The translations under genes and the position numbers were made by a program. From a virus, in the IMG/VR virus record IMGVR_UViG_3300031566_000483, positions 1 through 20,003 of that record: DNA of 20,003 bases; one strand, given 5' to 3'. This document shows, piece by piece, positions 17,866 to 20,003 of the stretch (position 1 is the first letter of the stretch; each line of letters begins with the position of its first letter). Below the pieces are notes generated by a model. The model saw only the letters and a list, made by a program, of their open reading frames with translations, searched no databases and was not told where the DNA came from.

Positions 17866-19308
17866 TTATTTCATCTTATTCATCAAATCTCTAAACTTAC
17901 TAGAGATATCATTAGACAGATGTTCATTTACTTCAGTTGTTATAGGAGTATCTTCTGTTTCAGATTCAAATGATTTTTTAAGATCAGATAATTCATTTTT
18001 AAGTTCTTTGATTTTAGCTTCTATACCAGTAATTTCAGATGATTCAGATTGTACTGCACCTTGCAATTCAGTATACTTTTCTTCAGCATCTTTTATTTTA
18101 CCTTCATCAGCTTCTTTCTTTGCATTTATTAAATTCTTTTCAGCTTCTGTATTATTATCAATAGTTATTTGATGAGCTTCCTGTTTATCTTTTAATTCAG
18201 ATTCTAATTCAGGTATTTGTTTTTCTATACTATCAGCTTTTTCTTTTTTAGCTTTTTGTGACTTAGTTAATTTCTTAGCATCTTCTTTATTATCAATAGA
18301 AGTTTCATCAGAATCGGATGAATCAGACTTTAATAAGTCTTGCTTCTTTTGCATTAGTATACCTATTTCATCACCGTGTCCTTGATAATTATCATCATCT
18401 TTTTTAAGCTTTGCAACTTGTTGCTTTGCTTGCTGCCATTTGATTTGAGCGTCAACTTTAACTATTTCATCATCACCATCTTTTACTTTATCATATTCTG
18501 TTTTAGCTAATGCAACTTTATCTTCTGCAGATTCTAATTCTTTATCATCAACTTGTTCAGAGTCTGTATTAGGTTCATCAGTTTTAGTTTCTCCAGGTTC
18601 TTTTTTAGAATCCGTAGTATCATCCTTCTTTTTCTTAGTCTCTTTTTTAGTTTCTTGAGGTTTAGCTTCTTCAGGCTTTTCAATAGGAGTATCTTCAGCT
18701 TTCTTTGCGTATGTCTTTAATTCATTCTCTGCATTTGTAATAGCTTCCTTATCAGACTCTATTTGATCTTCAAGCTTAAGCTTAAGGGCATCATTTTCTT
18801 CACCTTGTGCAATCTTTAATAATTTAGTATTTGCTTCTAAGCTAGCTTTATGTTTACCTAATCTTACTACAGCCTTAAGTGAGTCATTTACTGCTAAATC
18901 ATTAAGTCTATCATTGATATCTTCCATTTTGCCCTTGATAGCATCTTTCTTAGCTTTAATAGCTGTTTCTAGCTTTTCTTTATTTATTCCCTTAGGATCA
19001 TCTTTAGCTGCTTCCCTTTTTCTGATAGCATCCATATCAACAGATGTTATATCAAGTTTAGCTTTAACCCATTTCTTTAGATTATTCTTTACTTTAATAA
19101 ATTTTATTGGGGAGCCTACTGCGGCTTTTATAGTAGAACCTAGGTCTTCACTTAAATCAGAAAGACTTGATAATATAGAGTTAACCATAGTTTCGGCCTC
19201 TTCTATATTTATCAAGTCTTGTATTTCTTCTTCAGACAATTCTCTTTCAGAATCATCTATATAATTAACTTCAGGAGTTAAATCGTCTTCAGTTGTTAAC
19301 TCAGACTT
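17866..19308 (-). CDS. Downstream part of the acidic head-type protein (-1 frame), 480 residues
   Basis: The frame is open from the A-run at 19308 to the stop at 17866, and the only start-like codons before residue 40 are non-ATG (TTG 19239). It is therefore best read as the continuation of the upstream acidic protein after a -1 shift, starting KSELTTEDDLTPEV. It is extremely charged: a lysine-rich region with SIKFIKV-type hydrophobic spots near the start (SPIKFIKVKNNLKKWVKAKL), several coiled-coil stretches (IPELESELKDKQEA, IEAKIKELKNELSDLKK), a K/E/T/P-rich linker in the middle, and the final SSKFRDLMNKMK. No enzymatic motif is visible. Such composition fits a prohead core, scaffold or internal protein. 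If it were a separate gene it would need the TTG or an internal ATG (MVNSIL, about 19 residues later), which is less convincing. Confidence 0.7.
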   Translation of the reverse strand, partial: KSELTTEDDLTPEVNYIDDSERELSEEEIQDLINIEEAETMVNSILSSLSDLSEDLGSTIKAAVGSPIKFIKVKNNLKKWVKAKLDITSVDMDAIRKREAAKDDPKGINKEKLETAIKAKKDAIKGKMEDINDRLNDLAVNDSLKAVVRLGKHKASLEANTKLLKIAQGEENDALKLKLEDQIESDKEAITNAENELKTYAKKAEDTPIEKPEEAKPQETKKETKKKKDDTTDSKKEPGETKTDEPNTDSEQVDDKELESAEDKVALAKTEYDKVKDGDDEIVKVDAQIKWQQAKQQVAKLKKDDDNYQGHGDEIGILMQKKQDLLKSDSSDSDETSIDNKEDAKKLTKSQKAKKEKADSIEKQIPELESELKDKQEAHQITIDNNTEAEKNLINAKKEADEGKIKDAEEKYTELQGAVQSESSEITGIEAKIKELKNELSDLKKSFESETEDTPITTEVNEHLSNDISSKFRDLMNKMK

Positions 19309-19315
19309 TTTTTTT
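19275..19315 (-). promoter_or_regulatory. Candidate programmed -1 ribosomal frameshift signal
   Basis: On the minus strand GAC GAA is followed by a run of nine A (19315-19307, counting the last two of GAA), then GTCT. The slip heptamer A AAA AAA lies in the right phase, and the -1 frame then reads AAG TCT GAG. Five bases after the heptamer GAGTTAA (19302-19296) can pair with TTAACTC (19281-19275), a perfect 7-bp stem with a 14-base loop. The stem contains the zero-frame stop. Slip site, spacing and stem match the layout of known -1 signals. Confidence 0.55.
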
Positions 19316-20003
19316 CGTCCTCTAGTCCTTCTTCAGATTCGCCTACTAATTTAGCACCATCTTTATCTGATAGTTCTTTAGGCTCTCCTAATTTAACTAT
19401 TGTATCTTCAATTTTCTTAGCAGTTTTAGAACCGTCGCCAGTTTCGTCTGCAACATCAGCACTTTGTGTATCATCATCACCTTCTCCTTTAACAGCCTTA
19501 ATTGGCTCAGGAGGAGTTGCAACACCGTCAGCGTTTTCGCCAACTAAAGATTCACCTTCAGAATCAGATTTCTTTTCTGGTTCTCCTAATTTAACAGTTG
19601 CATCTTCTATTGCAGCAGCAGTTTTAGAACCGTCTCCTGTTTCTAAATCAACTTTAGTTTGATGTGCTTCATCATCACCTGTTTCAGAAGCCTGTGCAGC
19701 TACTTTTTCAGGTGGAGTTTGTACTTCAGTACCTTCTTCTATTTTAACGGATTCAACTTCAACTTTCATTGTGTCGTCTTCCTCATCATCGTCATCATCA
19801 TCGTCATCCTTATCTTCAGCAGCAGGTTCTTCAGCAGCAGGTTCTTCAGCAGGTTCTTCAGCAGCAGGTTCTTCAGCAGCAGGTTCTTCAGCAGCAGGTT
19901 CTTCAGCAGCAGGTTCTTCAGCAGGTTCTTCAGCAGCATCATCGTTAGAGATTTCAGCGTCATCGCCATTAGCTTTCTTATCATCCACAAATTCAGAAAA
20001 GGT
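19296..20003 (-). CDS. Acidic repeat-rich head-type protein, zero frame (5' end beyond window)
   Basis: The frame enters from the right edge and reads TFSEFVDDKKANGDD before the acidic region, so the GTG at 19988 is not the true start. TFSEFVDD resembles the T4 capsid-targeting peptide. Then come repeats of EEPAA (about 18-57 counted from the GTG), a run of about eight aspartates, and two tandem 67-residue repeats (91-157 and 158-223), each holding TPPE, ETGDGSKTA, VKLGEP and LVGE. The zero frame ends DEKKSLS at 19296. No enzyme motif is seen, and the protein is strongly acidic. Alone it makes at least 235 residues; with a -1 shift it continues for 480 more. A prohead-core or internal-protein role is inferred from composition, N-terminus and neighbours. 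Confidence 0.75.
   Translation of the reverse strand, partial: TFSEFVDDKKANGDDAEISNDDAAEEPAEEPAAEEPAAEEPAAEEPAAEEPAEEPAAEEPAAEDKDDDDDDDDEEDDTMKVEVESVKIEEGTEVQTPPEKVAAQASETGDDEAHQTKVDLETGDGSKTAAAIEDATVKLGEPEKKSDSEGESLVGENADGVATPPEPIKAVKGEGDDDTQSADVADETGDGSKTAKKIEDTIVKLGEPKELSDKDGAKLVGESEEGLEDEKKSLS
19320..19718 (-). repeat. Two tandem protein-level repeats of about 67 residues
   Basis: Copies at about 19718-19518 and 19517-19320 share, in order, TPPE, a short acidic stretch, ETGDGSKTA, IED, VKLGEP, SD, and LVGE. They differ in between, so the duplication is not recent, and the two copies are in phase within one reading frame. Confidence 0.8.
19819..19932 (-). repeat. 15-bp tandem repeat encoding EEPAA
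   Basis: Six 15-base units GCAGCAGGTTCTTCA (plus-strand reading) and two 12-base units GCAGGTTCTTCA are arranged 15, 15, 12, 15, 15, 15, 15, 12. All are multiples of three, so the acidic frame is kept. Nearly identical units suggest recent slippage expansion. Confidence 0.9.

Follow-up and report, generated by a model that had tools for sequence, protein, structure and literature searches.

The window analysed here, a stretch of 20,003 nucleotides covering positions 1 to 20,003 of the IMG/VR record IMGVR_UViG_3300031566_000483, carries on its minus strand the greater part of a gene, hereafter gene 1, whose acidic, EEPA-repeat reading frame (frame 0; 19296–20003) encodes the C-terminal 235 amino acids of a short product and ends at a TAA codon (19296–19298). 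Just before this stop the frame runs through nine adenines (19307–19315; T9 on the plus strand), the one place in the window where an A or T run reaches nine, in the context GAC GAA AAA AAA AGT CTG AGT TAA, with A AAA AAA as the in-phase slippery heptamer. The +1 frame stops one codon after the tract; the −1 frame, starting 17 nt 5′ of the run at 19332, remains open until a stop at 17866 and continues beyond the tract for 480 codons (17866–19306), encoding a coiled-coil domain with homologues at 28 loci. There is no ATG near the start of this extension: counting from the codon at 19317, the first TTG is codon 26 and the first ATG codon 43. The A9 run, the in-phase heptamer, the nearby stop and the long −1 frame had been described in an earlier note made from the sequence alone, and all of them are real, although the run in the window is known from one assembly only.

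The same note had included in the candidate site a stem-loop located five bases past the heptamer. A perfect 7-bp inverted repeat, GAGTTAA (19302–19296) and TTAACTC (19281–19275), does occupy positions 19275–19302, but it is probably incidental: it is absent from the minimum-energy fold, and the structure of the region is not unusual (z −1.28). No hairpin conserved across the candidate slip sites was found, and on this ground the stem-loop was rejected as the driver.

The acidic frame stops at 19296, as the note had it, but is incomplete in the window, its 5′ end lying beyond the edge. Locus L105, from the same species, has its last 85 bases 100% identical to the window edge and supplies approximately 69 additional N-terminal residues; the gene, whose start is found in both L105 and L106, begins MAFEIKVIDTFITEC. 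The predicted products are thus about 304 aa (short) and about 781 aa (long). To evaluate the −1 frame, we used a hexamer coding model trained on 738 long ORFs from related phages, which ranks the true frame first for 99.65% of control segments. It gives the initial 26 codons of the window −1 frame a score of +42.7, compared to −57 and −80 for the other two frames. The proposal of short and long products sharing an N-terminus and related by a −1 shift is backed by the coding score as well as by the junctions in relatives described below.

Gene 1 immediately follows the major capsid gene (L105/L106), which is of the gp23 type (Pfam PF07068, PHROG 138, in L083). Neither half of gene 1 matched Pfam or PHROGs. 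Approximately 30 residues into the protein there is an INE/S motif, a putative cleavage site, resembling the INE/A motif with which the capsid protein starts. The class considered for comparison was that of T4-type internal head proteins, defined by an N-terminal capsid-targeting segment with a prohead-protease site and by a position in the head gene cluster. Taken together, the position after the capsid gene, this motif and the acidic and coiled-coil composition suggest an internal or core protein of the prohead. This is probably the function of the gene 1 product, in line with the head protein envisaged in the earlier note, but the assignment is inferred without protein data.

Direct searches with the window coiled-coil protein, megablast with 15 kb of the window, an exact 29-mer search of IMG/VR, tblastn of the fused proteins against named phages or plasmids and scans of genome contigs all returned no match or relative, and alignment-driven scans with A1 and A2 yielded few loci, the patterns being short. 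Relatives were instead reached through terminase and clamp loader, and subsequently through the major capsid protein. Among them, the two parts of gene 1 occur in several arrangements. In L083 and L095, the acidic part, homologous to that of the window, is followed by the coiled-coil part in one continuous ORF. L093 has an acidic gene without the coiled-coil part, and in most relatives coiled-coil homologues are stand-alone genes with their own ATG and N-terminal signal (e.g., MPKLKTYSEFVNEA), both of which are missing from the window −1 frame. At the junction between the two parts, the long form is encoded in frame 0 in L083 (A9), L095 (A10) and L113 (A9) and in the −1 frame in the window, L114 and L125 (A9 in each). 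The flanks diverge among L083, L095, L113 and L114/L125, while the A9/A10 stays in place, and of the five gene 1 sites with at least nine A, every one has a single coding frame, the other two stopping within seven codons. L114 and L125, which come from two metagenomes and are 99.99% identical over 10.6 kb, are split exactly as the window is. In L151, the junction reads A7-C-A7 in frame 0, and in L108, L109, L110 and L112 the domains are fused without any run. Judging from these sequences, dual products are not universal, the tract or one of the domains being absent in some relatives.

The same −1 break recurs in other genes of the clade. Gene 2, adjacent to a gene for a gp55-like late sigma factor, belongs to a family of approximately 420–640 aa proteins with a conserved A9/A10 before the C-terminal domain (L227:6251, a minus-strand run in L249, and L292). 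It is split, with the domain in the −1 frame, in G005, in G016/G017, where two independent assemblies agree, and in G022, where the run is A10; in most relatives it is in frame, with A9 in many of them. In the species of the window (L183), gene 2 occurs only in the short form. A hairpin followed by T's, resembling a terminator or a stimulator, lies within the −1 extension of G005 gene 2, approximately 35 nt past the A9 (L227:6260–6330).

Gene 3 encodes a glycosyltransferase (PF00534) with a second glycosyltransferase-like domain that falls below the Pfam cut-off. It is split at an A9, with the second domain in the −1 frame, in four lineages, G014/G023, G015, G021 and G030/G031 (L240:4317–6391, L264:6540–8605, L280 and L294), and in all four the −1 frame runs for approximately 70 codons without a start codon. 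Comparison of G014 and G015, which are separated by a dS of 1.06, gave a dN/dS of 0.16 for the −1 frame and values above 1 for the other frames. Accordingly, unrelated genes in related phages are split at A9 and maintained under purifying selection. In the cultured Sphingomonas phage PAU, the host of which is reported as Sphingobacterium (PMC3738902), gp155, just upstream of the capsid gene, has a stop directly after an A9 (JQ362498.1, 114531–114539; L275); a 94-codon −1 extension with a coding score of +31 remains unannotated in the gap before the capsid gene. Finally, a membrane-protein gene of G005, gene 4 (L229:17503), has an A9 with a stop and a basic −1 tail of 49 codons; with a coding score of 0.9, this is a weak and doubtful case. 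At the species level, 11 splits were identified, including those in the window and L114/L125, and all are −1, gene 4 being the weak one. Split-like sites at A7 and A8 runs resembled ordinary gene overlaps and were left out of the count: two A8 sites that were read fully have an in-frame ATG 5 and 8 codons downstream, and many others have an ATG at or just past the run.

In six related contigs (~0.9 Mb), coding A-runs drop from 1860 A5, 651 A6 and 129 A7 to 12 A8 and 9 A9. Six of the nine coding A9 runs are −1 splits, none is a +1 split, and the remaining three are gene 2 in frame; for comparison, 2.3% of the A5 runs coincide with −1 splits and 1.5% with +1 splits. The tract encodes part of an EKK motif followed by a codon starting with A. 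Such motifs number 71 in 965 distinct genes, and A9 is found at 13 of them, all in the gene 1 and gene 2 families; no EKK motif outside these two families in this set has an A9. The EKK of the gene 2 tract is encoded by GAAAAAAAA in 15 of 15 distinct sequences, all in frame, compared to 0 of 14 control EKK motifs within the same genes (Fisher p 1.3e-8). This in-gene control excludes the protein motif alone as the cause of A9 conservation. The residue after the gene 2 tract can be Thr, Ser or Asn, always with an A-initial codon: where it is Ser, the codon is AGT in seven of seven cases, AGN accounting for 28% of Ser codons. Several caveats apply. The sequences are related by descent, so that the p-values are guides rather than exact probabilities; the statistics are drawn mostly from relatives rather than from the window; and members of gene 2 were partly found via the A9, which does not affect the in-gene control for the two Lys codons but partly affects the argument on the ninth A.

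Collectively, a homopolymer of about nine or more A at the frame junction is present in the window (A9) and in relatives (A9/A10), the slippery heptamer is in phase, and there is evidence both of selection on the −1 frame, in its coding score and in the dN/dS of gene 3, and of conservation of the tract relative to control motifs. We are accordingly confident, if short of certain, that the A9 tract of gene 1 is a conserved programmed slippage site giving rise to a short and a long form of a probable head protein. The data show the tract, how it is conserved, that the −1 frame is coding and that the pattern recurs in the clade; the slipping itself, its agent and its efficiency, and hence the product ratio, are inferred, as is the role in the head, in the absence of RNA, protein or read data. 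Most products would keep the encoded frame and terminate three codons on, yielding the ~304-aa acidic protein. In the preferred scenario, for which our confidence is moderate, a fraction of the mRNA would gain one A through slippage of RNA polymerase, and the ~781-aa product translated from it would have the identical N-terminus followed by the coiled-coil domain. The enterobacterial polymerase slips on runs of at least nine, and on A7–A11 runs insertion outweighs deletion (PMC6260861); every split identified here is restored by one added A. The slip may set the dose of the coiled-coil domain in the head, with entry relying on a single targeting signal; where relatives have a separate coiled-coil gene, it brings its own N-terminal signal.

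The −1 relation claimed in the earlier note is thus supported, but it may well be RNA polymerase, not the ribosome, that slips. Programmed −1 ribosomal frameshifting, exemplified by E. coli dnaX and T7 gene 10, remains a possible, albeit clearly less likely, route to the same long product: a fraction of ribosomes would shift at A AAA AAA on a uniform mRNA, perhaps aided by an upstream Shine–Dalgarno (SD)-like element or downstream structure. Every site checked has the heptamer in phase, all splits are −1, AGAAGGA is seen by eye ~12 nt 5′ of the window heptamer, and strong hairpins are predicted at L083 (z −3.0) and in gene 2 of G005 (z −4.9). However, several sites lack an SD-like element, no structure is common to the sites, and the heptamer does not require the ninth A, which is nevertheless kept, down to the exclusive use of AGT for Ser after EKK. 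Retention of the ninth A and the lack of a conserved hairpin favour transcriptional slippage without proving it.

The remaining explanations dispense with recoding. Homopolymers are error-prone, and the window run, resting on a single assembly, could be an undercalled A10, in which case gene 1 would be continuous, as it is across the homologous site in L083 and L095; the earlier note had named such a finding, or relatives in which the downstream gene has its own clean start codon and no slip site, as what would refute it. Comparison with relatives did uncover continuous genes, yet these keep the homopolymer at that very junction, and the L114/L125 lineage is split as the window is. Independent assemblies agree in this pair and in G016/G017, A10 runs are called at other sites (L095, L139, L166) and in G022 coincide with a split, +1 splits are absent, and the gene 3 break persists in four lineages and over a dS of ~1. 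Retention of the homopolymer, the identical split in L114/L125 and the selected splits in other genes make a miscounted run unlikely for the family, even without reads for the window. Poly-A tracts can also be phase-variable, and the frames of both gene 1 and gene 2 toggle between lineages at one tract, as would be the case if replication slippage turned the long form on in some genomes and off in others. For such a contingency locus, which we regard as slightly less plausible still than an undercall, the close relatives are unexpectedly uniform: L114/L125 and G016/G017 are each in one phase, all 15 distinct tract-bearing gene 2 sequences are in frame, and gene 3 is split in four of four lineages. 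Hence, sequencing error and phase variation are both disfavoured. Least credible is that the coiled-coil part is a separate gene re-initiated at TTG 19239, which is in frame and preceded by purine-rich sequence, in the manner of the stand-alone coiled-coil genes of other relatives. The ATG and N-terminal signal of those homologues are missing here, the 26 strongly coding −1 codons preceding the TTG are not accounted for by re-initiation, the first TTG in L125 is 44 codons in, and gene 3 lacks a start codon over its −1 stretch.

Poly-A slippage with similar outcomes is known from bacteria. In tssM1 of Citrobacter rodentium, an A11 gives the long form by slippage, as demonstrated on RNA and protein, whereas in tssM3 of Yersinia pseudotuberculosis it is the short form that requires the slip (PMC4256274). 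As proposed for gene 1, a poly-A followed by a nearby stop produces two lengths with a common N-terminus, and the swap between long and short forms parallels that between the window and L083; however, these are bacterial secretion genes in which slippage is proven rather than inferred. Similarly, dnaX (tau/gamma) carries A9 in Thermus thermophilus and A10 in the two-ORF version of Chlorobi, with two products, nearby stops in the non-productive frames and either the long or the short form made by slippage (PMC5009743, PMC3711429), but it is a bacterial replication gene, unlike the several phage genes per clade considered here. According to citations in PMC4256274, mxiE, mxiA, spa13 and spa33 of Shigella type III secretion use transcriptional slippage, apparently providing a case of several genes slipping within one system, albeit bacterial plasmid genes and not viral ones. 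Among phages, transcriptional slippage was suggested for a poly-A frame break in the methyltransferase gene of Campylobacter phage CPt10 (PMC2853527), also a virulent phage gene, but a single one that is not a head gene and for which no family-wide conservation has been shown. T7 gene 10A/10B and lambda G/GT, cited in PMC5009743 and PMC4256274, are phage structural or assembly genes in which a −1 ribosomal frameshift yields a minor, C-terminally extended product. In contrast to gene 1, these rely on ribosomes and on other slippery sequences, with no long A tract required.

Extending the argument to the clade, we propose, with moderate confidence, that in these large T4-related phages a bare A9/A10 functions as a general signal for recoding, used in four or more gene families, namely, the capsid-adjacent acidic/coiled-coil gene, the gp55-adjacent gene, the two-domain glycosyltransferase and PAU gp155, and that such runs are kept from nearly all other coding sequence. 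RNA polymerase slippage would generate fixed mixtures of short and long forms, with lineages swapping which of them is the un-slipped one. If the slip is real, several genes of the clade have come to share one simple signal, and the almost complete exclusion of A9 from other genes offers a clean natural test of the purpose of poly-A slippage. On the sequence evidence, the nine-A signal has the appearance of a conserved device for frameshifting rather than of a sequencing error. Since genes of this kind get split or truncated during annotation, long head proteins and the second domain of the glycosyltransferase are likely to be overlooked, as around PAU gp155; PAU being a cultured isolate, the question can be resolved at the bench.

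As a point against the proposed slippage site, a few further A9 runs are found in frame in LR756500.1, L063, L146 and L157. Tenacibaculum phage PTm1 (AP019524.1) also has in-frame A9 runs, at 104558 and 195452, near the N-termini of the encoded proteins (codons ~10 and ~37), with no frame break. In addition, a ~620-aa ORF located between the portal and capsid genes of L083 (L083:2501–4366) is placed as is the annotated combined prohead protease/scaffold gene of PTm1.
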